A stretch of 64,000 bases of DNA, taken from positions 1,302,001-1,366,000 of the forward strand of contig CP032507.1 of assembly GCA_008375315.1 (NCBI GenBank). The letters are read 5' to 3'. The position numbers and the translations under genes were made by a program. The stretch comes from Ectothiorhodospiraceae bacterium BW-2 (GTDB lineage Bacteria; Pseudomonadota; Gammaproteobacteria; Thiohalomonadales; Thiohalomonadaceae). Below are positions 10,272 to 38,567 of this stretch, piece after piece (the stretch's first letter is position 1; each line of letters opens with the position of its first letter). Under the pieces are notes generated by a model. It was given only the letters and a program-made list of their open reading frames with translations, ran no database searches and was not told the origin of the DNA.

Positions 10272-12689
10272 CTAACGCAGGTTAGCTATCCACTTATTAT
10301 CTTGATCCAGTAGCATTAATTGATTAATGATCCACTCAACACCCTCTGCTAATCCCAGCTCCTTATATATTAATCCTAACTCATAGTAAGCTGACACATC
10401 TTCCGAATATTGCCGTAGATATTCATTATATACATCGATTGCCCCAACTACATCGCCAGATATTTTAAGCGCTTTTGCGTAAAACTGAGCATACTGCTTG
10501 TCTTGGTTATATATTTTAGACATAAACGCAAGTGCCTCTTGAGTTTTGCCAGCAGCAATATAGTTGTTAAAAATTCTAAGTGGAATATCCTCTTTAGGAA
10601 TTAAGCTTTCGACTTTAAATAGCTCACCATTTGCCTCAAGATATTTTTTTTCTGACTCAAACAATAAGGCCCTGAGCATGTGAGCAACATCATGCAGGAT
10701 ATCCCATTTCTCCATAATACTAACCATAAGTCTTATCCCTTCTCGCTGCCCCTCCTGCATATATCGTCTGGCTCTTTCCATTAAAGCATTAATATTACGC
10801 TGTTGAGTATCAGTTGAAGTTATGTCGTTAACTCTATAGAGACTACTATTTTTTTGCATGATATCATCATCATAAAGAGCCTTTTGCGCAATCAATGCTT
10901 GATATAACATTTGATCTTTTTCATCCAATTTCGTAATAACGATACCGTGCTCAAGTTTCCATGCAAACGCTCTCCACGCCCCAATAGATAGCGAAGACCA
11001 TTGCGAAATCAGCTCTGAAACAGGCTGTTGTTTTTTCTCACTCAAAAGCATCCTGCATCGATCAATTGATTGCCGATAACAGCTCTCTAGTGTCTCATAA
11101 CCTAAACGGTAGGTATTAAATAGCTTCTCTCTCTTCTCTTTATCGTCAAGGGCGGTGTTAATTTCAACTTCACTAATGTTCGGAAACTTAAATAGCTGTG
11201 CAGTTGAGAAGTCGTACTTTGACAAGTCAGAGAGTTTCTCTTTTATCTCTTCACAACTTAAATCAGTTGGCTCATGCTCTGTAAACAATTGCTTAACGCT
11301 CTCCATTAGCATTAATTTATCTTCCATGTAGCCGATCAAAATGGTTAACATTTCTAGCTCAAACTTACTCCAATTATCCCGTTTTATATTAGCCAACTTC
11401 TCTAAAGAAGATTTTGGCGTATGAATTTTTATTTTTTCAATGGAAGAAAATTTTACCGATCTCAATTTAACAGCATGCTTAGATATGTTATAAAATTTAA
11501 TATTTTTTTTGTTATGCAAGGCAACTCTCTCAACATGTTTCGCTGAGAGCAAATAGGCCCTTTCGGTTTGAACCATCTCCCCGGAGTTAGCCATAACGAC
11601 TCTATCAGCATCTCTCAGCAAAGAGTTCATACCATCCTCAATATTACCACTCTTCGCATGTGTAAAGCCGTCAGGTGAAAAGGCAAAATCAGCCCCCGCT
11701 AAGATAATAGTCCGACACCCCAAGTAAATTGCCGCATTAATTGTGGTATTAGTCACTGTTGTACCAGTAGAATCCAAATTTCCAGGCGCTCGCAACTGTT
11801 CATGATCACTAAATCCTGGACCAATAAAATAGTGTTTCCCCCCCCAACCAGAGAGCAGACGATAATCAGCATACTGAGTATGCAAAAAGATAGAGTCCCG
11901 AGCAAAGTAAAGCATATTAAAAGAGACATTATAACTTACATCGTAGGGATCAACCGATACAAAAAAGTCAGGAAAAATAGCGTTATCCTGGAGAATTTTG
12001 GCAATTCTAGATACCGCAAAAACAATCACCCGTTCACGATTAGCTTTTACCCAATCAAGAATAGATGACAAAGATGGCCCTCCTGCCAAAATAATAGCAG
12101 TCGCGCCCACAAAATTATCTTTTAACCTTGATATTGGATGTAAATTATGACAAGCGTTAACCAATATCATCTCTGTATGACGAGTCGAATTGACAGTAAT
12201 ATTAATAACAAAAGTCAATTCATTTATCGTTTGCAAGCAGCTCTCATACATACTGACATATAAACTTTGGCCATCGATCAATGCCAACGATTTTATATGC
12301 TTAACCCTATTGCAAGAGAGGTAATATTTATACTTAGACTCAGAGTTAACAAAATTTAGGTAACTATTTTCTGATGTAACAATCACCTGATCGTCATCAC
12401 GATTATAGCTAGACAACTTCTCGACCAATCGCTCAAGTACAATAGGTGGCTCAATAAAAAGATAGACACTATCTTGCGGAATCCCATGCGCAAATAGATA
12501 ATCAACTAGCAAACCGCTATCGGTACCATAAACAAAATAAAAAGTTCTCTCTTGAAAAAAATCTTTATATAGCTCATCATAAATTGTTTTTGAATCCTTC
12601 TTATCAAATGATAAGTTATTTACCGATCTAAGATATAACTCACCAAATTTATTTTGAACATAACCCTCATTTAATATGGATGCCACCAA
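10272..12689 (-). CDS. Maf/DUF115 motility-associated glycosyltransferase with C-terminal repeats
   Basis: Maf-type proteins transfer nonulosonic acids or related sugars onto flagellin in the cytoplasm before export. The DUF115 core starts near residue 195 with ATAIILAGGPSLSS and contains FPDFFVSVDPYD and CRTIILAGADFAFSPDGFTHAKSG, hallmark segments of the family. After about residue 640 the protein has TPR-like helical repeats (AGKTQEALAFMSKIYNQDKQYAQFY; AIDVYNEYLRQYSEDVSAYYELGLIY), which could bind flagellin or partners. At 805 residues it is at the long end. The start codon appears to be TTG with gaggtag upstream; an adjacent GTG is possible. It is the last gene of the minus-strand run, next to the flagellins. 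Confidence 0.9.
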   Translation of the reverse strand: MVASILNEGYVQNKFGELYLRSVNNLSFDKKDSKTIYDELYKDFFQERTFYFVYGTDSGLLVDYLFAHGIPQDSVYLFIEPPIVLERLVEKLSSYNRDDDQVIVTSENSYLNFVNSESKYKYYLSCNRVKHIKSLALIDGQSLYVSMYESCLQTINELTFVINITVNSTRHTEMILVNACHNLHPISRLKDNFVGATAIILAGGPSLSSILDWVKANRERVIVFAVSRIAKILQDNAIFPDFFVSVDPYDVSYNVSFNMLYFARDSIFLHTQYADYRLLSGWGGKHYFIGPGFSDHEQLRAPGNLDSTGTTVTNTTINAAIYLGCRTIILAGADFAFSPDGFTHAKSGNIEDGMNSLLRDADRVVMANSGEMVQTERAYLLSAKHVERVALHNKKNIKFYNISKHAVKLRSVKFSSIEKIKIHTPKSSLEKLANIKRDNWSKFELEMLTILIGYMEDKLMLMESVKQLFTEHEPTDLSCEEIKEKLSDLSKYDFSTAQLFKFPNISEVEINTALDDKEKREKLFNTYRLGYETLESCYRQSIDRCRMLLSEKKQQPVSELISQWSSLSIGAWRAFAWKLEHGIVITKLDEKDQMLYQALIAQKALYDDDIMQKNSSLYRVNDITSTDTQQRNINALMERARRYMQEGQREGIRLMVSIMEKWDILHDVAHMLRALLFESEKKYLEANGELFKVESLIPKEDIPLRIFNNYIAAGKTQEALAFMSKIYNQDKQYAQFYAKALKISGDVVGAIDVYNEYLRQYSEDVSAYYELGLIYKELGLAEGVEWIINQLMLLDQDNKWIANLR

Positions 12690-12734
12690 TGTATGCCTAC
12701 CTCACTATCTAAATAAAAAATCGAAACACGAAAT

Positions 12735-14255
12735 TTAGCTCAATAGAGTCTTCAGATATTTTATCAAGTCTGACATCTCTATTGGATGACTATTACAGAC
12801 CCGTTTAATCTTTAGCGCACCCGCCGCATTTCCTAACAACCCAACAACATTTAAGTCAACTCCACAGGACAATAGAATAGAGGTAATCGACAACACAGCA
12901 TCACCGGCGCCGATACGATCAACAACCTGAGTTGATAGCGCAGGGACTACAACACTCTGCTGTTTAACCCTATCTACATAGGTAGCGCCTCGTTCTCCCT
13001 GAGTGATAGCGATATATCGAACCCCTAATTTCTCACCAATATTTTCCGCCACCTCCTCGATAGGATCATGACGATTATGCGCTGCAAGCCTTATCTCTGG
13101 CTCATTTAAGGAGATAAAATTAGCCTTCGGGTAGCGAGTAATCACATGAAAGCCGCGATTACCGCTATTAATTTGAGTGTTAACGGCAAGGAATCTACTC
13201 TTATCAACTAATCGCTCCACCATCTTTCGAGAGATAAAGCCGTTGCCAAAATCAGAGACAACCACACAATCATACTGATTAAGATATTTATCTAACCACC
13301 CATTAATTTGTTGCTCTGTCTCCTCATTCAAATACTCCAAACCATTATAGTAAACCTCAAACAATTTCGACATATCACCATTAACAAATCTAGCTTTGGT
13401 CAATGTGGGTTTACTATCCAAATAGTAAAAATGGGGCGTAACATTCGATTTAAGATTAGCTCGAATAAAGTTCTCATCATCAAACCAATCACCAATGACG
13501 GTCAGCAACTCCACCTGTTGACAAAAACCGGCAATATGATTTGCAACTGCTAATGAGCCCCCAGCAAATCTTTCAGTATGTTTGTGTTGAACGACCAATG
13601 TATGCGATTTACCACTTTGACCTAAATCATTTGTATAGTGGTACTCATCAATAATTGCCTCACCAACAACTAAAACTTTTAAATTTTTAAGCCTATCAAG
13701 TTCAGAGGCCACCAAGCTTGGTGTATAGTACTTCTTAATTTCATCCAGATAGAGACGAACCTCGGCTGAAAAGATATCGAAATGGTTATTAAGCAACTGA
13801 GTAGAGCTAAAAGTTACCTCATCAGTCAATAATATCTCGCCACCATAACTCTGCAACACTTCCCGTTCAGCACTAATATAACCGGCAACATCAATCGACT
13901 CATCTTTAAACTCACTTCCTTTAGCATAAATATCCGGTTTTAGCTGATATAATAGCTCGACCGCTGTTTTAGCACGAATAATCGCCACAAAATCGACACA
14001 CTGCAATGCTGCAAGATTTCCTGCTCGCAACTTCTCATTAAAAACAGGCCGTCCTGGCCCTTTCGTCACGAACTCATCTGCTGTTAAGGTAGCTATCAAA
14101 ATATCCGCTGCCCTTTTCGCTGCCTGTAGGTGACGAATATGGCCAGTATGCAGTAGATCAAAGGTACCGTGACAGAGCACCACCTTCTGCTGCCTATCTA
14201 CTGCCTCTTTTCTAAGAGCAATTAGCTCTTCTACACTTTTTATCTTCTCTAACAT
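12735..14255 (-). CDS. HldE-like fusion in reversed order: nucleotidyltransferase then PfkB kinase
   Basis: The N-terminal domain (residues about 20-160) is a cytidylyltransferase-like nucleotidyltransferase with CHGTFDLLHTGHIRHL (HxGH at 36-39). The C-terminal domain (about 190-506) is a ribokinase-type sugar kinase with GGSLAVANHIA and the catalytic GAGD motif at 449-452. E. coli HldE, which phosphorylates heptose 7-phosphate and then adenylylates heptose 1-phosphate, has these domains in the opposite order. Together with the neighbouring GmhA-like isomerase (7-base overlap) this predicts activation of a heptose-like sugar 1-phosphate. The sugar and nucleotide cannot be read from the sequence. 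Confidence 0.85.
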   Translation of the reverse strand: MLEKIKSVEELIALRKEAVDRQQKVVLCHGTFDLLHTGHIRHLQAAKRAADILIATLTADEFVTKGPGRPVFNEKLRAGNLAALQCVDFVAIIRAKTAVELLYQLKPDIYAKGSEFKDESIDVAGYISAEREVLQSYGGEILLTDEVTFSSTQLLNNHFDIFSAEVRLYLDEIKKYYTPSLVASELDRLKNLKVLVVGEAIIDEYHYTNDLGQSGKSHTLVVQHKHTERFAGGSLAVANHIAGFCQQVELLTVIGDWFDDENFIRANLKSNVTPHFYYLDSKPTLTKARFVNGDMSKLFEVYYNGLEYLNEETEQQINGWLDKYLNQYDCVVVSDFGNGFISRKMVERLVDKSRFLAVNTQINSGNRGFHVITRYPKANFISLNEPEIRLAAHNRHDPIEEVAENIGEKLGVRYIAITQGERGATYVDRVKQQSVVVPALSTQVVDRIGAGDAVLSITSILLSCGVDLNVVGLLGNAAGALKIKRVCNSHPIEMSDLIKYLKTLLS

Positions 14256-14869
14256 TGGCTTAAACAGTCTGCAATGTGGTGCAACATAAACAAGTGACCA
14301 ATCTCAACTTCCCCATAATAGCAACTAGGAAGCCAGTAATTAATATCACCCAACTTTTTTAAAGAGTTATCTATCTCAAAACCACTTAGAGTTAAACAAA
14401 ACCCCTTTTGCTCTATGGCAACAGCCACTGCATTCAATATATTAGCTGACTCTCCTGAGCTACTGATAGCAATCAACATATCACCAGAACTAAATTGGGT
14501 CTGTAACTGACGCGAATAACCCTGTTCATATCCGTAGTCGTTACTGTAACAGGTCAAAAGTGCCGGCTCATGAATCGTTGACGCAATTAAGCCACCGGTA
14601 TTACAAAAATCGTTGACAATGTGGCCTGCAACCGCAGCACTGCCACCATTACCGATGACAAACAGCCGCCGCCTCTCTGATCGTAGGTTAATTAGCTGCT
14701 GTAATAGAGTCGTAATAGCCGTCTCCAGCTCTATCTGCCCTCCATCAGCGTTAGTAAATTTAGCCTGTTGTAGCCGTTGAAAAAAATTTTCATTCCGCTC
14801 GGTAAATAACATCCGAGCAGAGTGCTTATCGATCTGATTAGATAAAGTTGACATGTGGTGGAGTATCAT
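14249..14869 (-). CDS. SIS-domain phosphosugar isomerase, GmhA-like
   Basis: A 206-residue protein with a sugar isomerase (SIS) fold: VIGNGGSAAVAGHIVNDF (substrate-binding loop and GmhA-like signature), GDMLIAISSSGESANILNAV (phosphate-binding SSSGES) and a C-terminal helix EIGHLFMLHHIADCL with the Glu and His pattern of GmhA. GmhA converts sedoheptulose 7-phosphate to heptose 7-phosphate. It lies directly upstream of, and overlaps, the HldE-like fusion, as expected for consecutive steps. Its first codons overlap the previous gene; an ATG at 14854 is an alternative start. Confidence 0.85.
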   Translation of the reverse strand: MILHHMSTLSNQIDKHSARMLFTERNENFFQRLQQAKFTNADGGQIELETAITTLLQQLINLRSERRRLFVIGNGGSAAVAGHIVNDFCNTGGLIASTIHEPALLTCYSNDYGYEQGYSRQLQTQFSSGDMLIAISSSGESANILNAVAVAIEQKGFCLTLSGFEIDNSLKKLGDINYWLPSCYYGEVEIGHLFMLHHIADCLSQC

Positions 14870-15938
14870 CCTTCAAAGCATAGAGGTAACGATTCACCTC
14901 ATCCATGCGACAATTTTTGCGACAGTGATGAATATCAAGATATTTAGAGATGTAACGCCAACTCTGCTGACGACGCTCCCCTTCCCAAATTTCACTGAAG
15001 CACTGTTCATTAATATTACCGTAACAGAACTGCTCATTCTGAAGATAGGCGCTACAACCATAGAGATCGCCATTAGCCATAATATAGCCCCAAAAGAAAG
15101 GAGTAGAATAACACTTTAGGTAACGCTGCCCCTCATCCTGTAGAGATTTTTTCATAGTTCGCTGTCGAAATACCACAGAAAAGTTGTCTCGATTTTCAGC
15201 GTGAAGCGCCTCCTCTAACTCAAACATCTGTGAATAATCGACCGATTCATACTCATGAGTCAGACTAAAACCGTGCTGTGAATAGGGCTTAACCACAAGG
15301 TAATCGAGACCTAACTCATCACGACAGAGTCGAGCTAGTGTCACCATCTCATCACGGTTTTCGGGCAGTAACAGCGATTGAGCTCCAAGCGTACAAGCGG
15401 ATCCCTGCTGATTACGCTCATTAACTAGACGCTTAAGATTCTGCTTAACAGTCTCAAAATCTCTCTCTTTTGTCTGATGAATAGCAGCATAACTAGCCGC
15501 TGTTCCAGCGTTCATAGAGACTTTTATCCATGAAGTTAGTTTCAAACCTCGCTCTAAAAAATCATCTCGAATCACCGTACCATTAGTCGTAAAAGCATTA
15601 TCTATTCCGCTTCGGGCAGCCGCTTCAACTATTGATGTTATCTGTTTATGCAACATCGGTTCGCCTTCACCGGCATACATAACACTCTTCACCCCTTTCT
15701 CACCCATCTCTTGCAATCGGTCAGCCAATAGCTTTTCATCCAGACGCACCGTTTGGTAGCCAATATAGTCAACTGCACAAAATTTGCAGCGGTGATTACA
15801 GGCACCAATCGGGGAAATTTCCATATAGAGTGGATAGATCAACTTAAGCTGTTCCCAATCCTCTCTACCATCTAGCCATTGAGCCACTCGTTGGGGGTGA
15901 TAGCTTAATTTATGGCTATCAATCTTAAATTTATCCAT
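14838..15938 (-). CDS. Radical SAM/SPASM protein (1 of 4)
   Basis: A radical SAM enzyme with the cluster motif CNHRCKFC (C47, C51, C54) after the strand LYMEISPIGA, a glycine-rich SAM motif (YAGEGEPML) and a C-terminal SPASM-like region with cysteines in GDLYGCSAYL and ...HHCRKNCRMDEV. SPASM enzymes carry auxiliary Fe-S clusters and modify peptides, proteins or small molecules. Here the setting among sugar genes points to a sugar or glycan substrate (inference). The frame extends to a TTG at 15947; the ATG at 15938, overlapping the upstream stop, is preferred. It overlaps the GmhA-like gene downstream. Confidence 0.88.
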   Translation of the reverse strand: MDKFKIDSHKLSYHPQRVAQWLDGREDWEQLKLIYPLYMEISPIGACNHRCKFCAVDYIGYQTVRLDEKLLADRLQEMGEKGVKSVMYAGEGEPMLHKQITSIVEAAARSGIDNAFTTNGTVIRDDFLERGLKLTSWIKVSMNAGTAASYAAIHQTKERDFETVKQNLKRLVNERNQQGSACTLGAQSLLLPENRDEMVTLARLCRDELGLDYLVVKPYSQHGFSLTHEYESVDYSQMFELEEALHAENRDNFSVVFRQRTMKKSLQDEGQRYLKCYSTPFFWGYIMANGDLYGCSAYLQNEQFCYGNINEQCFSEIWEGERRQQSWRYISKYLDIHHCRKNCRMDEVNRYLYALKDDTPPHVNFI

Positions 15939-17265
15939 CATTATCAATTAGCTCGCACATGGCTTCAAATGCATCAAAAATTTTATTACAGTCACGACTT
16001 CCACCCCAAACTGAAAATTGAAAAGGAGTTCTATCTGGATACTGACCACCTATCTCATGACCTAATCCTTCGAAGTATATAGAAGAACCCGCATAATCAT
16101 CTTCAGAAACATAGATAAAATTCAAATACTTAACATTAGGATTAAATGAAGAAAGAATAGCAGGTCCTGTATTAACCGCCATATTAAAATAAACGCATTC
16201 ATAAAATGCCATTCTAATCATAATATTCCATGCAGCCACATGAAAAACATAGTAATCACCAAGATCATCCATATTAAAATCAGCATAAGTGTCTTTTACA
16301 AAGACAGGAATAAGTCCTCTAGACTTTACTCTATTAGCAAAACATTTCCACGCAGAAATATCACTATTTCTATCTTTTTCCAGAGTATACTCTCGCATAG
16401 TAATTGAAACAACTTTATTTAAATCAATAGCTCTAGCATTACACCATTGCTTCACAAATGAAATTGCAGTTTTTCCACTCTTAAGAGGTAGCCCATAACT
16501 AGAACCGTTATATCTTGTATCTGTTACACGATAAGAGCTATCAAGTTCCATAGGGTTATCAACTGAGTAATTTTCAGGAAATACTCTTCCAGAATAGTGT
16601 TCAGCCAATATACGAGCTTCATCTCGCAAACTACATATTGATATTCCTTGATTGGAAGGAACAAGCGTCACTGAAGGAACAATAACATTGTATAAAAACC
16701 ATTGATTATCTGATTCAATTAAAGCATTCTTGTTATTTCTTAAAATGCTCTCTCTAGAAAAGTCAAAAACCGAGTCGGGACTCTTTGGAACAATAACTGT
16801 ATGCAACCATTTTAACTCTCGTTTTCGGCGTTCAGCTTCAGCATGAACTAGTGCATTAACAAATTCGAAAGTAAGTGTATTAACATTGAGATCATAAAAA
16901 AAACACAAAATGTCTTTGTGATTATCATCATTAGCTTTTGGTTCAAAAACGAAATTACACTCAATCCAGCTTAGATTACTAAATCCATTTTTTTTCAATG
17001 TATCCATAATTTTTTTACGAATCATATTTTTTTCAATAACAATGATAACATTGTTACTCTTATTCTCGGGCTTCACCTGATCAACCCTATAAATATTCCC
17101 CCCTGACTCAAAGTTTGATTTAAATGAATCAATAAATCCCAAAAAGCTCAACTCAGGATATAACTCAATTAGCTTTAACGCAAATTTTTCTGCAGAATTT
17201 CCTGCTGGAGAAATATAAAATGGCTCTCCCTTATGAATATCAATCGCTGTTCTTAACAAACCCAT
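15931..17265 (-). CDS. Unknown protein with N-terminal nucleotide-binding-like domain
   Basis: A 444-residue protein that I do not recognise as a named family. Residues about 15-110 look like a Rossmann-type sensor domain (FYISPAGNSAEKFALKLIE, FLGFIDSF, then NVIIVIEKNMIRKKIMDTL), similar in layout to the C-terminal domain of the radical SAM protein at 29124-30992. The C-terminal part has VVSITMREYTLEKDRNSD, SRGLIPVFVKDTYADF and MAVNTGPAILSSF, which recall uncharacterised glycosyltransferase-like proteins of surface-glycan clusters. No signal peptide or membrane segment is seen. It is AT-rich compared with the flanks. The start has a good site (ttggagat). Confidence 0.6.
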   Translation of the reverse strand: MGLLRTAIDIHKGEPFYISPAGNSAEKFALKLIELYPELSFLGFIDSFKSNFESGGNIYRVDQVKPENKSNNVIIVIEKNMIRKKIMDTLKKNGFSNLSWIECNFVFEPKANDDNHKDILCFFYDLNVNTLTFEFVNALVHAEAERRKRELKWLHTVIVPKSPDSVFDFSRESILRNNKNALIESDNQWFLYNVIVPSVTLVPSNQGISICSLRDEARILAEHYSGRVFPENYSVDNPMELDSSYRVTDTRYNGSSYGLPLKSGKTAISFVKQWCNARAIDLNKVVSITMREYTLEKDRNSDISAWKCFANRVKSRGLIPVFVKDTYADFNMDDLGDYYVFHVAAWNIMIRMAFYECVYFNMAVNTGPAILSSFNPNVKYLNFIYVSEDDYAGSSIYFEGLGHEIGGQYPDRTPFQFSVWGGSRDCNKIFDAFEAMCELIDNDG

Positions 17266-24748: not shown

Positions 24749-24816
24749 AAATCTTCCTCTCTTTGTAAGAGCCTATCAATTCCAGAAACAAAACCTCTCT
24801 TATTTATAAATCTGTC

Positions 24817-24974: not shown

Positions 24975-24980
24975 AATCTG

Positions 24981-28186: not shown

Positions 28187-28232
28187 TAAACACCATCCGA
28201 AAAACATCAAAAATAAAACGAATTGGCACTGG

Positions 28233-29096
28233 TCATCTATAATCAATCCCAATCATTACAGGTAATAATTCACTACATTTCTCAGAATTAATGTCTAATA
28301 TTTTTTTTACCTCATAATCATCTAAGGTTGCATGTTGACGAGCTAAAAAACCTAGGTTAGTCTCTGAAACCTGCACTGACTCTATATCCACACTCAACCC
28401 ACGACTCTGCGCCCAAGTTCGAGCTAACTCAAAATAACTCATCTCATCTTCCGCAGTCATCTGAAAGACACCCCTAAGACGCTGCTCCATCAGCATAGCA
28501 ATCACCCATAATGTTCGCTGTATTGATACAGGAGAAAAAACATAATCAACAAAGGCTCGTATAGCTTCACCCCGGTCAAGAGCTCGTTGCCATCCATGTA
28601 TTACATTCATCGGTCCATCAATAACCTTTCCAAGGCGTAATACCGCACCGGCTCCGGTTAAAAGCAGAGATTCAATGACTGCCTTTTGTCTCCCGTACTC
28701 AATAGATGGAGAGACAGTCGTCATCGACTTAACTTTGGGTAGCTCGCCATTAAATACCAAATTAGTCGATGGATAAACCACTGTGGCTCCCCTCTCCCAT
28801 AGTATTTCAATAAGCCTCATGGTTGCTGCCACATTGATCTGCGCTGTTATTTCTGGTTGATGTTGACATTGAACCACATCGCTAATCCCTGCACATATCA
28901 CAGCTAAATCAACAGAATTTGGCAACACCCAGCTTGATGGTTCTGAAGATAAATCGAGATATAGTAGTTTCTCGTTATCTCTACGTCTCGTAGTACCTGT
29001 AACAGACCATCCTTGATGCGTTAAATAGTTTATCAATGCATGACCTAATGTACCATCTGCGCCAACAACTAAACATTTTTGTTGTACAATCATCAT
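28233..29096 (-). CDS. RmlD-like NAD(P)-dependent sugar-nucleotide enzyme
   Basis: A 287-residue extended SDR protein: LVVGADGTLGHALINYLT at the N-terminus, ICAGISDVVQCQHQPEITAQINVAATMRLIE, VVYPSTNLVFNGELP and the YxxxK site in SIEYGRQKAVIESLL. It shares the RmlD layout with the enzyme at 23915 but the two are clearly different. The substrate is unknown. It lies between two B12-type radical SAM genes, suggesting it reduces or epimerises a product of one of them. Confidence 0.83.
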   Translation of the reverse strand: MMIVQQKCLVVGADGTLGHALINYLTHQGWSVTGTTRRRDNEKLLYLDLSSEPSSWVLPNSVDLAVICAGISDVVQCQHQPEITAQINVAATMRLIEILWERGATVVYPSTNLVFNGELPKVKSMTTVSPSIEYGRQKAVIESLLLTGAGAVLRLGKVIDGPMNVIHGWQRALDRGEAIRAFVDYVFSPVSIQRTLWVIAMLMEQRLRGVFQMTAEDEMSYFELARTWAQSRGLSVDIESVQVSETNLGFLARQHATLDDYEVKKILDINSEKCSELLPVMIGIDYR

Positions 29097-31031: not shown

Positions 31032-32084
31032 TTAACTTTTAAATTTTATTAGACAGCGCCCACTACTTTTTCCAGAACGCATATCATCAAGAGCATCATT
31101 AATATTTTCCAGAGAATAATAATCGGTAAACAATTCCCGCAACTGTATTCTTCCTGCTCGATATAGCGCGTGATAGCGTGGTATATCCAGTTCAGGACGA
31201 CTCTCTCCACCATGAGAACCTGTAATATATTTCCCAAAATGCATTGGGAGAGAATAAATATTAATATTATCTCCTTTTTTAGGAACTCCAACCAATATAA
31301 CACGTCCTTGTGGTTTACTCAGTTGATAACCCATTTCAATAATGGCCGGTTTACCTGTATTATCAATAAACACATCAACACCATTGGAATCCAAAATTTG
31401 GCTAATCGTCTCTTTTGCATCAACAACATTAGCATTAATCGTATGGGTAGCACCCATCTTCTTCGCTAATTCCAATCTATTGTCATACAGATCAACCGCA
31501 ATAATGGGATAGGCACCAACTAGACTAGCAGCCTGAACAATATTCAGTCCCACACCTCCAGCACCATAAACCACTACCGACTCACCAATACGCACATTTG
31601 CATCATTTTCCACCACACCAAACCCAGTTGTCACGGCACAACCAAATAAAGCCGCGACCTCCATATCACTATCTAATGGGATTGCTGTCATGCGGTTTTC
31701 CGACACAATCGAGTATTCGCTAAATGTCGTTACCCAACCGGCGTTTACCGTTTTTTCTCGCCATTGGTATTTAGGTGGAGCAGACTCGATTCCACTCCCT
31801 TTACGCCAATGCAATACAACGATATCCCCAACTTTAACAGTTCTTACCCCAGCACCAATCTCAATCACTGTTGCAGAGGCTTCATGTCCTAATAAATGAG
31901 GCAAAAATCTATCTTCACCTTTTGCACCATCTATCTCTCCAATTTGAGAACCACAAATACCGCTGAAATGAATTTTAACCAATACCTGTCCCACCTCCAG
32001 TGATTCAGGCAACATTATCTCTTCAATAACCAGTGGTTTACGCTGCTCGACTAAAATAGCCGCTTTCATTGTTTTTGGTATCAT
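31032..32084 (-). CDS. Zinc-type alcohol dehydrogenase (MDR family)
   Basis: A 350-residue medium-chain dehydrogenase. The catalytic-zinc Cys is in FSGICGSQIGEI, the His in HLLGHEASATVIEIG and a further Cys in FGCAVTTG. The NAD site is VVYGAGGVGLNIVQAA. The loop that holds the four structural-zinc cysteines in classical enzymes is replaced by HWRKGSGIESAPPKYQW without cysteines. Homologues with this loop occur in sugar-modification clusters, where they oxidise a polyol or sugar hydroxyl (family knowledge). It has a close upstream neighbour (methyltransferase, 7-base gap), so it is part of the operon. Confidence 0.88.
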   Translation of the reverse strand: MIPKTMKAAILVEQRKPLVIEEIMLPESLEVGQVLVKIHFSGICGSQIGEIDGAKGEDRFLPHLLGHEASATVIEIGAGVRTVKVGDIVVLHWRKGSGIESAPPKYQWREKTVNAGWVTTFSEYSIVSENRMTAIPLDSDMEVAALFGCAVTTGFGVVENDANVRIGESVVVYGAGGVGLNIVQAASLVGAYPIIAVDLYDNRLELAKKMGATHTINANVVDAKETISQILDSNGVDVFIDNTGKPAIIEMGYQLSKPQGRVILVGVPKKGDNINIYSLPMHFGKYITGSHGGESRPELDIPRYHALYRAGRIQLRELFTDYYSLENINDALDDMRSGKSSGRCLIKFKS

Positions 32085-32091
32085 CTATCAT

Positions 32092-32769
32092 TCACTCAAA
32101 GTAGATGTAGGAGTAATCACCACTATAACCCGTCTGCTTGAACCACCAGTCCCACTCTTCTGGAGTACAAAAAGCCTCACAAGTCACCTGCCAATAGAGC
32201 AGATTAGCCTTCTCCTCCTCATTTCGGTACGACTCTACACAGAGATATTTATACTTTTTTCCGACCCGTTCCATCTCTCTTAGAGCTTTATCCAGATCGT
32301 AGTTATGTAAGTTATGCAGCGTGGTAATGGAAAAAACAAAATCAAAATGGTCATCCGGAAAGGGAAGATGATTAGCATTCCCAATCTGTAACCGATCTTT
32401 TATCTCTTCCTTACCATTTTCTATTGCATAATCGGAGATATCGATTCCGTAAACATCTAGTCCAGGCAATAGTTGTGTCAATTCATAAAGTTGATAACCC
32501 TTACCACATCCAATATCAAGTATTTTATCGCCAGGTTTTAATCCATAGTGTTGAATCATTGCCTCTCCAACAGGTGCCCAACGACCAGCCATGTAGCGAT
32601 ATCCACCATAGTTTATGCGACGATCGCCATCCCAATAGTCATGCGCCCATTTTTTAGCTAGCATTGCCGCTTTTGCCTTGGGATATTCCGGATCATTTAC
32701 CCGAGCCAAATAGTCGCGCTGAGTGCTTTTATGTACTTTAGACATAAAATCAATATATGCCATAATCAT
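32092..32769 (-). CDS. Class I SAM-dependent methyltransferase
   Basis: A 225-residue Rossmann methyltransferase: motif I DKILDIGCGKGYQLYEL, acidic motif II VYGIDISDYAI, motif III LQIGNANHLPFPDDHFDFVFSITTLHNL. This is the group that methylates small molecules, and the neighbours suggest a sugar O-, N- or C-methylation. Its start overlaps the phosphotransferase gene by 20 bases. The alternative ATG two codons later (32763) is equally likely. Confidence 0.88.
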   Translation of the reverse strand: MIMAYIDFMSKVHKSTQRDYLARVNDPEYPKAKAAMLAKKWAHDYWDGDRRINYGGYRYMAGRWAPVGEAMIQHYGLKPGDKILDIGCGKGYQLYELTQLLPGLDVYGIDISDYAIENGKEEIKDRLQIGNANHLPFPDDHFDFVFSITTLHNLHNYDLDKALREMERVGKKYKYLCVESYRNEEEKANLLYWQVTCEAFCTPEEWDWWFKQTGYSGDYSYIYFE

Positions 32770-33811
32770 ATTCCTTAATTGATTGAAAAACTGTCTGTGC
32801 TTTTGTTAGCTGAGCTATTTTAAGTGCTGTTTCATCTAACATAGGATTTGCAAATTTCCTTCTTTTCATATGCACTGGCAAAAAAATATTGAGCATAATA
32901 CAACACCATTTTACTTGATAAACCGGATACAACATTTGAATCCGCGTCCTAAAATCATCAACATCAGCAAATAAATGTTGGCTGCGATCAATAAAATATT
33001 GGTAATATTTCATCGGAACCTGAACGGCGGGTTGTAGAAAAAAATCTATAACCGTCTTAACTGGATCATCCCACCCCGCATATTCAAAATCGATAAAGTA
33101 AATCTCTCCTTTATCTGTTCGTAAGGCGTTATGAAAGCCAAAATCGGACGGTGATACGCAACACTGCCCTTGTGAAAATAGTGCATCCATTGCCCATCCA
33201 CGCCTATATGCCTGCTGTTCAATCGACTCACGACACCATTTCCAAAACTTGGCCAACTCGTTGATAAAGTCAACACCTTTACCGCCAATACCATCATCAT
33301 CAATCGCTAGCAGCTGTTGAATACGCCGAGCAGTAATATTCAAGTGCCCAATCAATGACGAAGGCGATTCAGATGCAGGAGGCAGTTTCTCTGCATAGTA
33401 ACGCATTATGGGTTGGTTGAGTCCATTCAGAAAATTAATGGCTGCATCAACTTCCTGTTGCCCCAACTCATCTGGTTGTAGATGTTCTCCGTCAATATAC
33501 TCGTAAAGAGCCATACCATTTTCAGCACTCAACGCTAATGGTGCGGGTACACTGCCTGGACAAACATGATTTGCATACACCAGAAAATCATATTCGGTCT
33601 GTAACCGATTGCGATTATCACCATCGTGCTGAAAATAGTGCTTCAACAGATATTTTTGATGATTCTCACCTGACTCAATACAGTAACTTCGATTATTCCC
33701 CCCCATACACAAAAGAGATATTCGCTCTATTTCTGTATCCTCTGCTGCGGCTCGTACCAACAGTTGCGAAGATATACTGTATAGTTGTGCCTCGTGGATA
33801 AGATTTTCCAT
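32750..33811 (-). CDS. Aminoglycoside/choline-kinase-like phosphotransferase
   Basis: A 353-residue APH/choline kinase-fold enzyme: MGGNNRSYCIES (ATP loop), KYLLKHYF (ATP Lys), the catalytic loop around CVSPSDFGFHNALRT with Asp and Asn, and the magnesium-binding FIDFEYAGWDDPVKTVIDFF. Relatives phosphorylate choline (LicA) or sugars such as N-acetylhexosamines. Here it could phosphorylate a free sugar or alcohol destined for the nucleotidyltransferase. The frame is open to 33850, but the ATG at 33811 overlaps the HAD stop (TAATG) and is preferred. Confidence 0.83.
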   Translation of the reverse strand: MENLIHEAQLYSISSQLLVRAAAEDTEIERISLLCMGGNNRSYCIESGENHQKYLLKHYFQHDGDNRNRLQTEYDFLVYANHVCPGSVPAPLALSAENGMALYEYIDGEHLQPDELGQQEVDAAINFLNGLNQPIMRYYAEKLPPASESPSSLIGHLNITARRIQQLLAIDDDGIGGKGVDFINELAKFWKWCRESIEQQAYRRGWAMDALFSQGQCCVSPSDFGFHNALRTDKGEIYFIDFEYAGWDDPVKTVIDFFLQPAVQVPMKYYQYFIDRSQHLFADVDDFRTRIQMLYPVYQVKWCCIMLNIFLPVHMKRRKFANPMLDETALKIAQLTKAQTVFQSIKEYDYGIY

Positions 33812-34416
33812 TAACACTCTATCCCAAGATACTTCCCTATATCCTGCCAAGTTGCAAAAGTAGGCATCAAAGAAAGTGAATAGTGTTCTTCGGGATCAAA
33901 CAGAATGGAGATAATATTTTTAGGGAACTTTTGCGCGGTCAATATTTCAGGCAAATCATCAATAAAGCAGTCACATCCACACCGTTCAATCTGTGCCAAT
34001 TTAGTATCGCGTGTTAATTCAAAGAAAAGCTGTTCATCGCTAAATAATTTCCGGTTATTCCAAACAAGATTCTCATTAATCCATCCTCTAGCTGCGGCAT
34101 GTAGATCATAGGGTAAACCAATGACAGGATATTGTGTCTTATGACTAATGATATTGATAACATGCCCCTGTTCAACGGCTGCTGCGATGAAAGCCACCAC
34201 ACCAGGAAAAGCACTTGCCTCACTCATTCGTTTACCGTAAACATATCCCTGCATCTCTGTCCATACAGGCTCCTGATCTATACCGCGCAAGTAATCGCGT
34301 ATGGCAATTTTATTGACTGGCATATCAGAATTTATCACCCCCTGTTCTAGTGCAACTTTATAAAAAATTTCATCATAACAGGCTATGGTATTGTCAAAAT
34401 CAATTCCAATATACAT
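33811..34416 (-). CDS. HAD-superfamily phosphatase-like protein
   Basis: A 201-residue HAD protein with the nucleophile motif at the very N-terminus (YIGIDFDNTIACYDE; D6 and D8), a Ser/Thr motif in INIISHKTQYP and the acidic motif CDCFIDDLPEIL. It could fill the GmhB role of removing the 7-phosphate from a heptose bisphosphate, next to the GmhA-like and HldE-like proteins of this island, although it is not a classical GmhB by sequence. It is coupled to the phosphotransferase gene. Confidence 0.8.
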   Translation of the reverse strand: MYIGIDFDNTIACYDEIFYKVALEQGVINSDMPVNKIAIRDYLRGIDQEPVWTEMQGYVYGKRMSEASAFPGVVAFIAAAVEQGHVINIISHKTQYPVIGLPYDLHAAARGWINENLVWNNRKLFSDEQLFFELTRDTKLAQIERCGCDCFIDDLPEILTAQKFPKNIISILFDPEEHYSLSLMPTFATWQDIGKYLGIEC

Positions 34417-34453
34417 CCAATTCCTCGCTTTAATAACGCAATCAAAACTACCA

Positions 34454-35368
34454 CTAAATGCGTGACAAAATTTGATATGCTATGTTTTTAGCGGTTAAAC
34501 CATACTTTTGACGAGCATACGCCTGATGGCCTACTTCATGCATAAATTCATCTGCAGTACCAAAATTGACAAGGGGAATCCTATTTTCGGTCGCTACCAT
34601 CCACTCAGCCACAGCGCTGCCAAAGCCTCCCAACAAACTATGCTCTTCTACGGTTGCAATCAGTTCAAAACGCTCCATAGCCCCTGAAAGATAGGTCACA
34701 TCAAGAGGTTTTACGGTATGAAAGCTAACTATTTCCGCCAAGACTCCCTGTTCAGCAAGGATATCCGCCGCTTTCAGTGACTCTTCCATCATACTACCTA
34801 CTGACAACAAGGCAATTCGCTCCCCGGGACGAACAATGATAGCTTCGCCGGTTGTCAATCGTAGTGATTTTGAATGAATATCCGGTTCACCTTTTTTACC
34901 AATTCGGATATAGGCCGGCTTATCAGACTGTAACACTGCTCGCATGATCATACGCAGCTCGTTTGTATCACAAGGCGCAAATATCTGCATGCCGGGCAAA
35001 GTTCTCATAATGGCTAGATCTTCGAGCGAATGGTGAGTTGGACCAAGCTCTGCGTAAGAGAGACCGGATCCAGTCCCAACAATCACTACCGGAACATTTT
35101 GATAACAAACATCCACTCGGATTTGCTCAAAGCAGCGAGTTGTTGTAAACGGAGTAATGGTGTACACAAATGGGCGCAGACCCGAAAGCGCCAATCCGGC
35201 AGCAACCCCCATCATATTGGCTTCAGCGATACCGCAATTGAGAAACCGCTTTTCATCTATATCTTTAAATTTATCAAATAGTCTATTACCAATATCACCC
35301 GATAAAAGAACAAGCCGTTCATCCACTTTAGATAGTTGCGTTAACTCATCAGCAAATGCATTTCTCAT
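34454..35368 (-). CDS. Transketolase C-terminal half (pyrimidine-binding and C-domain subunit)
   Basis: A 304-residue subunit corresponding to the second half of transketolase: NAFADELTQLSKVDERLVLLSGDI, then FLNCGIAEANMMGVAAGLALSGLRPFVYTI with the TPP-activating Glu in GIAEANM, and ELGPTHHSLEDLAIMRTLPGM. It pairs with the N-terminal half encoded immediately upstream, the two coupled by an ATGA overlap (start 35368; a GTG two codons earlier also exists). Split transketolases in glycan clusters transfer two-carbon units onto or off sugars. The substrate here is unknown. Confidence 0.92.
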   Translation of the reverse strand: MRNAFADELTQLSKVDERLVLLSGDIGNRLFDKFKDIDEKRFLNCGIAEANMMGVAAGLALSGLRPFVYTITPFTTTRCFEQIRVDVCYQNVPVVIVGTGSGLSYAELGPTHHSLEDLAIMRTLPGMQIFAPCDTNELRMIMRAVLQSDKPAYIRIGKKGEPDIHSKSLRLTTGEAIIVRPGERIALLSVGSMMEESLKAADILAEQGVLAEIVSFHTVKPLDVTYLSGAMERFELIATVEEHSLLGGFGSAVAEWMVATENRIPLVNFGTADEFMHEVGHQAYARQKYGLTAKNIAYQILSRI

Positions 35369-36186
35369 TTGCACTCTCCAAGCTCGTCCTGTGCTAATAA
35401 CACCTCTTCAGCGGTAGGTATACGATAGTGCCAATTATTATCATCCTCCATAAAGGAGACTCCTTTCCCTTTCGTCGTATGCGCAATAATTGCAGTTGGT
35501 TTCTCTTTTTTCGAGGTAAAACGATCTAATTCAAATAACAGCTCAGAGTAATTATGTCCATCAACTTCAACAGATTCCCAGCCGAATGCACGCCATTTAT
35601 CAATCATAGGATCGAGAGAGAGGATTTCCTGACTACGACCAGTTGCCTGCCATTTATTAAAATCAACAATCACACATAGGTTAGATACTTTTTGTCCAGC
35701 AGCCAGCATAGCTGCTTCCCAAATAGAGCCTTCATTACACTCCCCATCTCCCAGCACAACATAAACATTATACTCTCTCTTTTGCATGCGTGCCGCCAAT
35801 GCAATTCCCAATCCTATGGGTAAACCATGACCTAACGAACCAGTCGCAGCCTCAATTCCAGGTAATTTATCCGGCGTAGGAGGATGTTCCGCAAACAACC
35901 CACCATCCTTACCGTAATCATTAAGACAATCCGAATGATAATAACCGCGTTTTGCTAGCACATGAAATAATGCTGGTGCCCCATGACCTTTGCTCAAAAT
36001 ACAACGATCTCTCAATGGATCTGTTGCTTTAGAAGGATTGATTCTCAATTTCGAAAAATATAGAGCTACCAAAATATCAACACAAGAGAGGCATGAACCT
36101 AAATGAGGCGTATGGCTCTTGTGGGAATTCTCAATAATTTGTTTTCTTAAAACACAAGCAATCTGTTTCAGTTGGTCGTACTGCAT
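35365..36186 (-). CDS. Transketolase N-terminal half (TPP/Mg-binding subunit)
   Basis: A 273-residue subunit with the thiamine diphosphate motif VYVVLGDGECNEGSIWEAAMLA (GDG...N), the upstream His-containing strands CILSKGHGAPALFHVL and TGSLGHGLPIGLGIALA, and HTTKGKGVSFMED at the end. It forms a heterodimer-type transketolase with the following gene. The ATG at 36186 is preferred over a TTG at 36195. The chromosomal thiC nearby makes the TPP precursor but has no special link to it. Confidence 0.93.
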   Translation of the reverse strand: MQYDQLKQIACVLRKQIIENSHKSHTPHLGSCLSCVDILVALYFSKLRINPSKATDPLRDRCILSKGHGAPALFHVLAKRGYYHSDCLNDYGKDGGLFAEHPPTPDKLPGIEAATGSLGHGLPIGLGIALAARMQKREYNVYVVLGDGECNEGSIWEAAMLAAGQKVSNLCVIVDFNKWQATGRSQEILSLDPMIDKWRAFGWESVEVDGHNYSELLFELDRFTSKKEKPTAIIAHTTKGKGVSFMEDDNNWHYRIPTAEEVLLAQDELGECK

Positions 36187-36223
36187 AATAATCAATATAA
36201 TTTACAATAAAGTAATAGAACAA

Positions 36224-37219
36224 TTATGGCTTGTGGATGTATGTATCATTCTGATTTTTTAATACATCAAAATTAGAATCAATCCACTCTATAACTTCAT
36301 CAACACCTTGTTCAAGACTTACAACATCACTCCAGCCAATATTTTTTCTAATTTTGGTACTATCAATCAAATAAGCTGCATCTTTTCCGAGCCTTTCATC
36401 AGCTATATCGACCACATCATAAAAGTCAACTCCCATTTTATTACATATCATTTCAACTATACTCTTAATAGTTACAGTTGACTCAGTAGCTATATGGTAA
36501 ACATCACCGATATCACCTTGTAAAGCCACCTTTAATGTAGCATCTGCAACATCCCTTATATGCACGAATGATCTCTCTGAAATACCACCGCCATGGAGCT
36601 GCAAACGCCTTTTTTGCTTTATATACATGATAGTTCGAGGAATAATCCGATAGAGTTGCTGACCAATCCCGTAAACATTCGCTGCACGAGTATAAACTGC
36701 TGGAAAATTATAATTATCAATAAATGTTTTCAAACTCATATCGCCAGCTGCTCTAGAGGCAGCATAGGGCGTACTAGGGTTATAAGGCTGATCTTCCCTA
36801 ACATAGTTAGGACAATTACCATAAACTTCTGGCGTTGCAATATGAACATATTTTTTTATAAAATCAAAATCTTTTAACCTATTAAATAGCCTTGTCACAG
36901 CAACAGCATTCGTCATAAACCAATGTTCAGGATGTAACCAACTCTCAGCCACCATACCCTGAGCAGCAAAATTCACGATATAGTCAGGTTTTTCTTTTTC
37001 CATCAAATCAGCAATTTTATCTAGATCATGATTGAGATCCATCTGATAAAAAGTGTAATATTCATCCACTAACCTGTTATTAATGTACGGCAAAAAAAGT
37101 CTATTAGGTGGCTGAGAACGGCTAACTCCAATTACTGAGTAACCCATATTTAAGCCAAAATCGACAAAACTCGCTCCCGAAAAAGAATTACTGCCAATCA
37201 CCACTATTTTTTCATTCAT
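36224..37219 (-). CDS. NAD-dependent epimerase/dehydratase with YxxxR active site
   Basis: An extended SDR of the GDP-mannose/dTDP-glucose dehydratase type: VVIGSNSFSGASFVDFGL (a modified GxxGxxG), IVNFAAQGMVAESWLHPEHWF, IATPEVYGN, RAANVYGIGQQLYRIIP, SERSFVHIRDVADA. The active-site motif reads TPYAASRAAGD, so the usual YxxxK lysine is Arg (Y152, R156 from the chosen start; codon aga at 36752-36754). The first codon of the longest frame is GTG at 37249; the ATG at 37219 is preferred. It is the first gene of the minus-strand run, divergent from the radical SAM gene at 37440. Confidence 0.85.
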   Translation of the reverse strand: MNEKIVVIGSNSFSGASFVDFGLNMGYSVIGVSRSQPPNRLFLPYINNRLVDEYYTFYQMDLNHDLDKIADLMEKEKPDYIVNFAAQGMVAESWLHPEHWFMTNAVAVTRLFNRLKDFDFIKKYVHIATPEVYGNCPNYVREDQPYNPSTPYAASRAAGDMSLKTFIDNYNFPAVYTRAANVYGIGQQLYRIIPRTIMYIKQKRRLQLHGGGISERSFVHIRDVADATLKVALQGDIGDVYHIATESTVTIKSIVEMICNKMGVDFYDVVDIADERLGKDAAYLIDSTKIRKNIGWSDVVSLEQGVDEVIEWIDSNFDVLKNQNDTYIHKP

Positions 37220-37331
37220 AATCATTAACTTACTACCAAGAAGACCCACTCCAAACTACAACCGTAAACAGCCAAATTAAAAAAATCAATCTGCAATTAT
37301 GACTTGTTTATCCTTCAATTTAGCGTCTTAC

Positions 37332-37357: not shown

Positions 37358-37439
37358 AAAACCGCTGTCATTTATATATCATATCCTTAATTAAAGTTAC
37401 ATATACTATATTTATTTGTCAACCAAGAGAGACTCTGCA

Positions 37440-38567
37440 ATGCCAAAAAAAATGAACCTAACCAACAAGCTACATCAACCGCTGATACTAGAGCGCATTT
37501 CACAATCCGACTCTTTAGCACCAAAAACCTATCCCCTCGTCGTCGAACTCGACACCACCGAGGCCTGTGATCTCGCCTGCCCCGGCTGTATTAGCGAAGA
37601 TATTGTCCAAAACGGCGCTCGTTTCTCCAACGAAAGACTACTACAACTCGGAGAGGAACTCTACGATGCGGGCGTTAAAGCCGTTGTCCTTATTGGGGGC
37701 GGCGAACCCCTAGCCCACCCCGCTGTTGGTGAGTTAATTGACTACTTTGGCACCCATGATATCCACATTGGCATCACCACTAATGGCACCTTTATCCACA
37801 AATATCTGGAACCAATTGCCAAATACTCGTCATGGACCAGAGTCTCTATGGACGCTGCAACGAACAAGCTATTCCAAAAACTACGACCCTCCAAAGGAGG
37901 AAAATCGAAATTCGACCAAATTATCGCCAATATGCGGCAATTAGCCAAAGTTAAACAGGGTAAACTGGGCTATTCTTATCTCATTCAAACGGAAGCCGAT
38001 GGTAATGGCGTTGTCCCCAATATTCACGAAATATATGCAGCCGCAGAGTTAGCACGCGATATCGGCTGTGACTACTTTGAAGTTAAACCGAGCTACCAAT
38101 TTCGTAAGGGCATCGAGCATGCATTGATGAAACACTCTCAAGAGAAGATGGATCAAGCGCGAGCTGAAATTGAACGACTTGATGAGCTAGAGACCGATAG
38201 CTTTAGTATTATTAAGGCGATTAACCTAGATGCATCTCTAAATGGCATTAATGAACCACAACCAAAGGACTACAAACGCTGTCCGGCTTCCATTCTTCGC
38301 ACCCTGATTGCGCCATCGGGCGTTTTTGTCTGCCCCTATTGGCGTGGGAAAATTCAATACAACATGGGGCAATTGCACGATCAATCTTTTCAATCGCTAT
38401 GGCATGGCCAATGCCGCGCTGAAGTAATGAACTACCTTGATGCCGGAAAACAGTGTAACTTTCACTGCCTACGACACCTATCCAATCTTGAAACTATTGC
38501 TATAACGAATGCACTGGAGCAGGGGAATCCCATAGCGACCGTTGATGAGTTTGATCGATTTATTTAA
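37440..38567 (+). CDS. Radical SAM/SPASM protein (4 of 4)
   Basis: A 375-residue enzyme with VELDTTEACDLACPGCISE (C43, C47, C50), SAM-binding VVLIGGGEPLAHPAV and a SPASM-like C-terminus (KRCPASILRTLIAPSGVFVCPYWRGK, later GKQCNFHCLRHLSNLE). It is the only radical SAM gene of the island on the plus strand, and less AT-rich than the others. The frame begins at a TTG (37416); the ATG at 37440, with agagag upstream, is preferred. The last 288 bp are duplicated as a remnant at 39545-39832. Confidence 0.9.
   Translation: MPKKMNLTNKLHQPLILERISQSDSLAPKTYPLVVELDTTEACDLACPGCISEDIVQNGARFSNERLLQLGEELYDAGVKAVVLIGGGEPLAHPAVGELIDYFGTHDIHIGITTNGTFIHKYLEPIAKYSSWTRVSMDAATNKLFQKLRPSKGGKSKFDQIIANMRQLAKVKQGKLGYSYLIQTEADGNGVVPNIHEIYAAAELARDIGCDYFEVKPSYQFRKGIEHALMKHSQEKMDQARAEIERLDELETDSFSIIKAINLDASLNGINEPQPKDYKRCPASILRTLIAPSGVFVCPYWRGKIQYNMGQLHDQSFQSLWHGQCRAEVMNYLDAGKQCNFHCLRHLSNLETIAITNALEQGNPIATVDEFDRFI

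Follow-up and report, generated by a model that had tools for sequence, protein, structure and literature searches.

A radical SAM-rich island beside the flagellin genes of Ectothiorhodospiraceae bacterium BW-2 may remodel a heptose-type nucleotide sugar for flagellin glycosylation

The stretch analysed here, positions 1302001-1366000 of the single-contig genome (4,074,140 bases) of Ectothiorhodospiraceae bacterium BW-2, carries eight of the 26 genomic matches (25 above cut-off) to the radical S-adenosylmethionine (rSAM) family PF04055, all eight within 24 kb. Coordinates below count within this 64-kb window. The region is framed by FliD (4970), two flagellins (7035 and 9354) and two Maf proteins (Maf1, 10272; Maf2, 52754); genes of the pseudaminic acid (Pse) type occupy 41.4-59.4 kb, and given the positions of Maf2 and of a PseC-like aminotransferase (58233) the glycan region extends to about 59.4 kb. 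On balance, we lean towards reading it as an acquired flagellin-glycosylation island which, besides a pseudaminic-type nonulosonate, would make a second nucleotide sugar by an rSAM-remodelled heptose route. The genes are as follows (SDR, short-chain dehydrogenase/reductase; SAM, S-adenosylmethionine; ThDP, thiamine diphosphate; NDP, nucleoside diphosphate).

4970-6343: FliD
7035-7907: flagellin, second copy
9354-10223, plus strand: flagellin (PF00669/PF00700)
10272-12689, minus strand: Maf1, MptE-like putative flagellin glycosyltransferase with a TPR-like tail (PF01973, E 1.9e-38), of what we take to be the former DUF115 family
12735-14255, minus strand: HldE-like, nucleotidyltransferase plus PfkB heptose-7-phosphate kinase, domain order reversed
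14249-14869, minus strand: GmhA-like sedoheptulose-7-phosphate isomerase (SIS; TIGR00441, E 1.8e-21, below its cut-off)
14838-15947, minus strand: rS1, SPASM rSAM, anchor of the conserved cassette (PF04055, PF13186)
15931-17265, minus strand: u444, no family found
17286-19334, minus strand: rB1, B12-binding rSAM, TokK/CysS relative (PF04055, PF02310)
19404-20510, minus strand: rS2, SPASM rSAM (PF04055, PF13186)
20510-21004, minus strand: WbuC-family cupin (TIGR04366, above its cut-off)
21011-21871, minus strand: SDR epimerase/dehydratase (PF01370)
21862-22797, minus strand: GT2 glycosyltransferase (PF00535)
22823-23896, minus strand: rS3, SPASM rSAM (PF04055, PF13186)
23915-24748, minus strand: RmlD-like reductase 1, RmlD1 (PF04321)
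24981-26657, minus strand: rB2, B12-binding rSAM (PF04055, PF02310)
26750-28252, minus strand: rB3, B12-binding rSAM, best solved relative AprD4 (PF04055, PF02310)
28233-29096, minus strand: RmlD-like reductase 2, RmlD2, overlapping rB3
29124-30992, minus strand: rB4, B12-binding rSAM, weak AprD4 relative (PF04055, PF02310)
31032-32084, minus strand: zinc alcohol dehydrogenase (PF00107/PF08240)
32092-32769, minus strand: MT1, SAM-dependent methyltransferase, recurring elsewhere with rS3 and DH46
32750-33850, minus strand: APH-type kinase (PF01636)
33811-34416, minus strand: u201, HAD phosphatase (from motifs and fold search)
34454-35374, minus strand: split transketolase, pyrimidine-binding and C-terminal part (PF02779/PF02780)
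35365-36195, minus strand: split transketolase, ThDP-binding N part (PF00456)
36224-37249, minus strand: DH46, NDP-sugar 4,6-dehydratase-like SDR
37416-38567, plus strand: rS4, SPASM-like rSAM (PF04055)
38578-39252, minus strand: MT2, methyltransferase
41420-42490, plus strand: glycosyl hydrolase/transferase (weak PF13692, below cut-off), which we take to be PseG-like from its GMGHLKR motif
42939-44003, minus strand: NeuB/PseI-like nonulosonate synthase (PF03102)
44000-45199, minus strand: ATP-grasp
45224-45919, minus strand: MT3
45930-47423, minus strand: aldehyde dehydrogenase
47435-51367, minus strand: acetyltransferase (FemX/GNAT), formyltransferase, DUF4910 and PseF-like cytidylyltransferase (PF02348, 50588)
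51374-52378, minus strand: PseB-like 4,6-dehydratase (PF02719)
52754-54043, minus strand: Maf2 (PF01973)
58233-59405, minus strand: PseC-like DegT aminotransferase (PF01041)

All eight rSAM genes named in a preliminary description of this DNA are present as open reading frames (ORFs) above the Pfam Radical_SAM cut-off, each with the CxxxCxxC motif intact; seven lie in one same-strand run (10272-37249) and the eighth (37416) on the opposite strand. The assignment of four of them (17286, 24981, 26750, 29124) to the B12-binding type holds in every case (PF02310 above cut-off), and the neighbours listed there, namely SDR epimerases and reductases, a GT2, a split transketolase, a zinc alcohol dehydrogenase and methyltransferases, were all recovered by domain search. 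The four proteins called SPASM-like come down to three with PF13186 above cut-off (14838, 19404, 22823); rS4 gave no such match at E 0.001, despite C-terminal cysteines that are similarly spaced. The block does lie between a flagellin/Maf pair and pseudaminic-type genes, with PF01973 at 10272 adjoining the flagellin at 9354 and again at 52754, and with PF02719, PF02348, PF03102 and DegT matches at 51374, 50588, 42939 and 58233, respectively; no gene could be given the name of a dedicated PseH. A crude hydropathy scan of ORFs of at least 130 amino acids starting beyond 4 kb gave no multi-pass membrane profile, the sole exception being u225 with two hydrophobic stretches; the flippase and polymerase that a polysaccharide locus has therefore seem to be missing from the island, which is to be expected where a soluble nucleotide sugar passes straight to flagellin. 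The protein u444 has no family in Pfam or NCBIfam and no tblastn match in the rS1 loci searched, and its start resembles, by eye, a PglD-type Rossmann segment.

The preliminary description had not named the HldE-like (12735), GmhA-like (14249), HAD phosphatase (33811) and APH-type kinase (32750) genes, and it missed both the heptose route (GmhA/HldE/HAD) and the interchange of ThDP enzymes in other genomes, which we regard as the best clues to the chemistry. Homologues of the isomerase, kinase and nucleotidyltransferase of the heptose route stand together at 12735-14869. A separate kinase-first HldE, matching the halves of the island protein at 37% and 24% identity, is encoded elsewhere in the genome, so that the island HldE is an additional copy. 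In u201 the HAD motifs (DxD, SHKT, K and DD) are invariant in eight sequences; a PDB sequence search with it gave no match, and in a fold search HAD folds came out on top, the nearest solved structures being deoxyribonucleotidase-like and none of the 50 matches listed being named GmhB, the bisphosphate phosphatase of the heptose pathway.

The rS1 gene recurs in a conserved setting. A profile of the four SPASM proteins matched ten of 369 genomes of the class at E 1e-40, the genome itself included, and seven others carry rS1 orthologues (50-62% identity). An rS1 alignment searched against genome contigs gave 222 stretches with 186 relatives, the best 80 of which (56-63% identity) are the loci studied here; their hosts include Methylomonas, Methylobacter, Gallionella, Nitrospira, Paludibacterium, Aquitalea, Vogesella, Magnetococcales and Planctomycetota, among others. 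The commonest gene order is rS1 - SDR - GmhA - HldE - E1alpha - E1beta - second SPASM rSAM. With a homology-weighted choice of ORFs, in which rS1 itself was seen in 79 of the 80 loci, we counted the SDR in 51, E1beta in 44, E1alpha in 43, the second SPASM enzyme in 37, MT1 in 12 and the split transketolase N part in 11; counts of ThDP and GmhA/HldE enzymes come from tblastn on the DNA, and since loci are often cut by contig ends, absences are weak evidence. GmhA or HldE was found in 61 of the 80 loci. Another rSAM family (F9) occurs in 12, of which 11 have a GT9 heptosyltransferase-like gene and none has GmhA/HldE (p 8e-10), and seven loci have neither GmhA/HldE nor F9.

The variant nearest to the window, with HAD, APH-like, split transketolase, rS3 and MT1 genes and sometimes WbuC- or RmlD-like genes, was found with varying completeness in L050, L054, L058, L075, L086, L104, L111 and other loci. 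Extended stretches carry four rSAM genes in L118, from a Rhodospirillaceae metagenome-assembled genome (MAG), five in L119/L120 (a betaproteobacterium, where rB1 and rB2 both have relatives) and four in L123 (Gallionellales, with an rB1 relative). The block is a real, coherent and recurrent biosynthetic island rather than a random collection. As separate observations, a 112-residue protein (F8; one member run, no Pfam match) is a neighbour of the second SPASM enzyme in 11 of the 80 loci (L038 among them) and occurs in phage L143 too, and a Rhodospirillaceae MAG (G389; L086, L106, L125-L129) has 62 radical SAM matches over about 3.2 Mb, one of its contigs having five PF04055 matches inside about 12 kb.

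A ThDP enzyme accompanies rS1 in 71 of 89 loci (80 genomic, eight viral, one plasmid): 55 are E1-type, 13 are split transketolases and three are acetolactate synthase (ALS)-like, this last class consisting of one Pfam-tested protein (L144) and its relatives by tblastn (L056, L138). Sequences of the window and of five loci (L033, L042, L097, L139, L144) served as search seeds, and the last four of these loci are among those searched and match themselves. Ten of the 18 loci without a ThDP match are shorter than 13 kb, and for L084, which is one of the 18, the transketolase genes lie further upstream (L123). Transketolase (11 loci) and E1 (46 loci) never share any of the 80 genomic loci (p 2.7e-5), and they therefore look like substitutes. 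The ThDP classes given for branching keto-sugars in passages of a 2025 review are YerE-like decarboxylases and E1-type alpha-KADH2, together with split-gene transketolases, which are proposed for miharamycin and amipurimycin (PMC12247030); YerE acts there on a CDP-4-keto-3,6-dideoxy hexose, and the 13 keto-acceptor split transketolases of one survey are described as all streptomycete, none characterised in vitro. AviB1/AviB2 and YerE are the two mechanisms that had been described up to then, according to passages of PMC4425429.

The replacement of one branching ThDP class by another beside rS1, with all three represented, is the strongest hint in our data that the conserved chemistry may be carboligation to a sugar ketone, not the supply of sedoheptulose-7-phosphate. 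Transketolase does make sedoheptulose-7-phosphate in ordinary metabolism, and here it shares a block with GmhA/HldE-like enzymes, so that the split enzyme might only feed an unbranched heptose that is then deoxygenated or C-methylated; we consider this unlikely, in that the ThDP enzyme is E1 or ALS-like in 58 of the 71 loci, neither of which is known to make sedoheptulose-7-phosphate, and transketolase and E1 exclude each other.

Linkage to flagellar genes was analysed in 40 rS1 genomes hand-picked from the 80 loci, six of them already known to have flagellin in the locus, a flagellin-family gene being defined as a PF00669 match, which may include FlgL. Such matches were present in 35 of the 40 genomes, and rS1 lies within 40 kb of one in 15 of these 35 (at most 2.13 expected, p 1.8e-10) and within 15 kb in seven (at most 0.84 expected, p 1.4e-5), the p values being optimistic given a radius set post hoc and related genomes. 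Without the six known cases, the 40-kb figure is 9 of 29 (1.79 expected, p 2.5e-5), and when matches are in addition restricted to strong ones (E 1e-24) it is 7 of 24 (0.98 expected, p 2.3e-5). The 15 include four genomes of Methylomonas/Methylobacter and three of Paludibacterium/Aquitalea/Vogesella. A single contig of one genome (G318) carries flagellins, Maf, Pse genes, a SPASM rSAM gene, a ThDP-like pair, HldE, GmhA, an SDR and rS1; G141 resembles it, though the stretch analysed there took in just part of Maf and showed no clear flagellin. The heavily remodelled sugar of the preliminary description agrees with a set of nucleotide-sugar and rSAM enzymes that recurs and that, at a radius of 40 kb, shows enrichment around flagellin-family genes. 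There is good support for a nucleotide sugar as the product and for a role in the flagellum.

The individual rSAM enzymes suggest what the remodelling could involve. In an alignment of 52 rS1 sequences, C48, C52 and C55 of the core motif and C277, C296, C340 and C344 are invariant, and the four C-terminal cysteines suggest one auxiliary cluster. By sequence, the best solved relatives of rS1 are DesII and BlsE, with BtrN matching weakly over the C-terminal part only; structural identity to these three is 13-19%, and scores fall far under the NCBIfam cut-offs for DesII and BlsE, so on such comparisons rS1 is a family of its own. The rS2 protein is 43% identical to one in G349, whose region also has DH46, alcohol dehydrogenase and MT1 homologues, and rS3 recurs with MT1 in related loci. 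A single-protein search of the genome contigs with rS4 gave no match; a close homologue (67%) in G236 sits in L022 with ATP-grasp and aldehyde-dehydrogenase genes, relatives of those at 44.0-47.4 kb of the window, on a contig different from that of the G236 rS1, and rS4 therefore probably belongs to a different modification, that of the ATP-grasp/aldehyde-dehydrogenase module. The preliminary reading is accordingly refined: the eight rSAM enzymes are probably not all for one sugar.

Among the B12-binding enzymes, rB1 has TokK (E 1e-43) and CysS (4e-38) as its closest solved relatives and the KedN5 subfamily as best NCBIfam match (151 bits against a cut-off of 700); it was absent from 55 other genomes searched at E 1e-20. 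TokK and CysS are C-methylases, CysS an iterative one. The rB2 protein has a 32% full-length relative in L120 and no solved relative at E 0.001 in a PDB sequence search. AprD4 is the best solved relative of rB3 (E 4e-16; 74 bits against an NCBIfam cut-off of 500, so that rB3 is not filed as AprD4) and, weakly, the closest of rB4. The partner of AprD4, AprD3, is an NADPH-dependent reductase according to passages of PMC5461906. The likeness of rB1 to TokK and CysS, together with the description of E1- and transketolase-class two-carbon-branched sugars from antibiotics in parts of PMC12247030, could be taken to mean that the block makes a diffusible secondary metabolite; we find this barely credible, given flagellin and Maf on its flanks, no multi-pass membrane protein in the crude scan and, among the scanned proteins, no polyketide synthase or nonribosomal peptide synthetase domain save a weak ketoreductase (KR)-type SDR match of PseB.

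Based on these homologies, we propose the following pathway. The GmhA-like, HldE-like and HAD enzymes would convert sedoheptulose-7-phosphate to an NDP-heptose, whose ring carbons the SDRs and SPASM rSAM enzymes, rS1 first, would oxidise, dehydrate or epimerise, rS1 most likely supplying a ketone. The split transketolase, acting as a ThDP carboligase, would then place a two-carbon branch on that ketone. Among the B12-type enzymes, rB3 and rB4 may deoxygenate in the manner of AprD4 and rB1 may C-methylate in the manner of TokK and CysS, with the RmlD-like reductases, MT1 and the cupin completing the sugar, and the flanking Maf proteins would attach it to flagellin, where the GT2 may extend it. 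What is observed is the gene content with its homologies, the recurring cassette, the swapping of ThDP classes and the closeness to flagellin; the substrate, the branch, each single reaction and the attachment to flagellin are predictions.

Several results weigh against this pathway or its flagellar destination. The island HldE and GmhA score far under the NCBIfam equivalog cut-offs (rfaE_dom_I 141.9 against 345, rfaE_dom_II 109.2 against 181.5 and gmhA 76.8 against 209.45 bits), and they may therefore, though homologous, act on a substrate other than sedoheptulose-7-phosphate. The overlap of rB3 with RmlD2 is a pairing seen only in the window, and in L120 and L123 RmlD2 homologues lie near rB1 relatives instead. 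Locus counts and the Fisher and linkage tests treat related loci as independent, which phylogenetically they are not, and the 40-kb radius was chosen after the distances had been seen; at 15 kb and without the six known cases, linkage falls to 2 of 29 (0.71 expected, p 0.16), no longer significant, and with strong matches only to 1 of 24 (p 0.32). Five of the 40 genomes have no flagellin-family match, so the cassette is not exclusively flagellar, and in 20 of the 35 that do, rS1 is not within 40 kb of one, partly owing to short contigs. These last two figures, and a GT9 heptosyltransferase-like family found with rS1 in 12 of 80 loci (Pfam run on one member), are also what would be expected of an O-antigen or exopolysaccharide sugar cluster that merely sits beside flagellar genes and whose sugar goes to lipopolysaccharide; such an origin is a serious but rather improbable alternative, since the block is flanked by two Maf genes, lacks any flippase- or polymerase-like membrane protein in the crude scan, belongs to a cassette about five- to seven-fold enriched near flagellar genes at 40 kb, and has a counterpart in the flagellin-Maf-Pse-cassette contiguity of G318.

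The fold of rS1 is a further point against the proposed pathway. Its predicted model is good (mean predicted local distance difference test score 91.5) and superposes on DesII with Z 25.4 and root-mean-square deviation 3.9 over 330 aligned residues, and the peptide-modifying SkfB (25.0, 3.6, 293) ties with it, SuiB (24.4, 3.9, 302) and BlsE (24.1, 3.9, 297) coming close behind. Given the DesII/SkfB tie, the modelled fold does not separate a sugar from a peptide substrate for rS1, whereas its neighbourhood does. SPASM enzymes often act on peptides, and the tie would suit a modification of flagellin itself or of a small peptide, in the manner of ribosomally synthesised and post-translationally modified peptides (RiPPs); we hold this to be very unlikely, as rS1 has heptose-nucleotide genes next to it in 61 of 80 loci and by sequence matches the sugar enzymes DesII and BlsE best, and as the ORFs in the gaps at 24749-24980 and 39253-40004 are all small, none being precursor-like by eye. 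The direct rSAM modification of flagellin that the preliminary description had offered as a second option found no supporting evidence apart from this equal nearness of the rS1 fold to SkfB and DesII.

The glycan island is probably horizontally acquired, its G+C content being 34-46% over 10-58 kb compared to 51-56% at the window ends (1-4 and 58-64 kb), as expected for such DNA; the FliD/flagellin stretch (4-10 kb) has 43-44%. In the first of the two gaps named above, between RmlD1 and rB2, a short element (24817-24974) with perfect 23-base inverted repeats has 67 matches in its own genome, mostly to its ends and including one near-full copy at 86%, and looks like a miniature inverted-repeat transposable element. 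In the second, positions 39545-39832 are what is left of another copy of rS4: these 288 bases share 90% identity with the rS4 3' end and lie just upstream of a transposase fragment (DDE_Tnp_4, 40514-40921).

Relatives of rS1 (44-50%) are also carried by eight IMG/VR contigs (L137-L144), seven of which have a second SPASM rSAM gene and all of which have a ThDP enzyme, short E1-like or ALS-like (L139 and L144 being search seeds as well); four have GmhA and HldE relatives and four an F9-type rSAM gene instead. The five contigs examined (L138, L139, L140, L143, L144) proved to encode phage structural or replication proteins; across the five, these are terminase, portal, RecE, annealing protein, helicase and DNA polymerase. 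Radical SAM gene cassettes are reported from pelagimyophages in passages of PMC7029224 that do not name this pathway. Separately, plasmid pDCAR1 of Solidesulfovibrio carbinolicus (L145) bears Pse genes, a split transketolase, HAD, APH, HldE, GmhA and rS1, with three more genes annotated as radical SAM, and is a possible vehicle for transfer.

A broader proposal, which we put forward tentatively and would not yet bet on, is that the rS1 cassette represents a general and hitherto undescribed way of making branched higher-carbon sugars, in which a twitch-type rSAM enzyme would form a ketone on an NDP-heptose and any of three ThDP carboligase classes would attach the branch. Bacteria of several phyla would use it for their flagellin glycans, and phages would have acquired it. 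The island of the window, with the most rSAM genes seen here, would in addition deoxygenate by radical chemistry and possibly methylate iteratively, as CysS does, so that its flagellin sugar would be strongly hydrophobic. In open-access (PMC) literature searched by titles and abstract openings, which leaves subscription journals mostly outside, we found no description of an rSAM-rich flagellar island or of the rS1 cassette. If the proposal is correct, two kinds of chemistry familiar mainly from antibiotics, radical SAM sugar remodelling and ThDP sugar branching, are joined in a widespread surface-glycan pathway, and the rS1 cassettes of Proteobacteria, Nitrospira, Magnetococcales and others would have a common purpose. 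Many homologues of the barely studied split transketolases are provided as well, and the compact phage copy raises the question of its purpose there.

Campylobacter, Aeromonas and Shewanella have known flagellin glycosylation islands in which Maf genes occur together with those for pseudaminic acid. The window shares with them flagellin, Maf, PseB/C/F/I-like and tailoring enzymes in one locus; its own additions are the heptose-nucleotide route, the split transketolase and the eight radical SAM enzymes. The same three ThDP classes that are represented by YerE (yersiniose), AviB1/AviB2 (avilamycin) and the split transketolases of miharamycin and amipurimycin in passages of PMC12247030 and PMC4425429 stand beside rS1; in contrast with the YerE system and its CDP-4-keto-3,6-dideoxy hexose, the route here is of the heptose type, with a radical SAM enzyme as possible ketone source. 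Compared with DesII, BlsE, BtrN and AprD4, rS1 (DesII/BlsE) and rB3/rB4 (AprD4) are relatives, rS1 a distant one by identity. Finally, rB1 has its best matches among the TokK/CysS/KedN5 C-methylases, though far under the KedN5 cut-off, and lies in a glycan island, not in a natural-product cluster.

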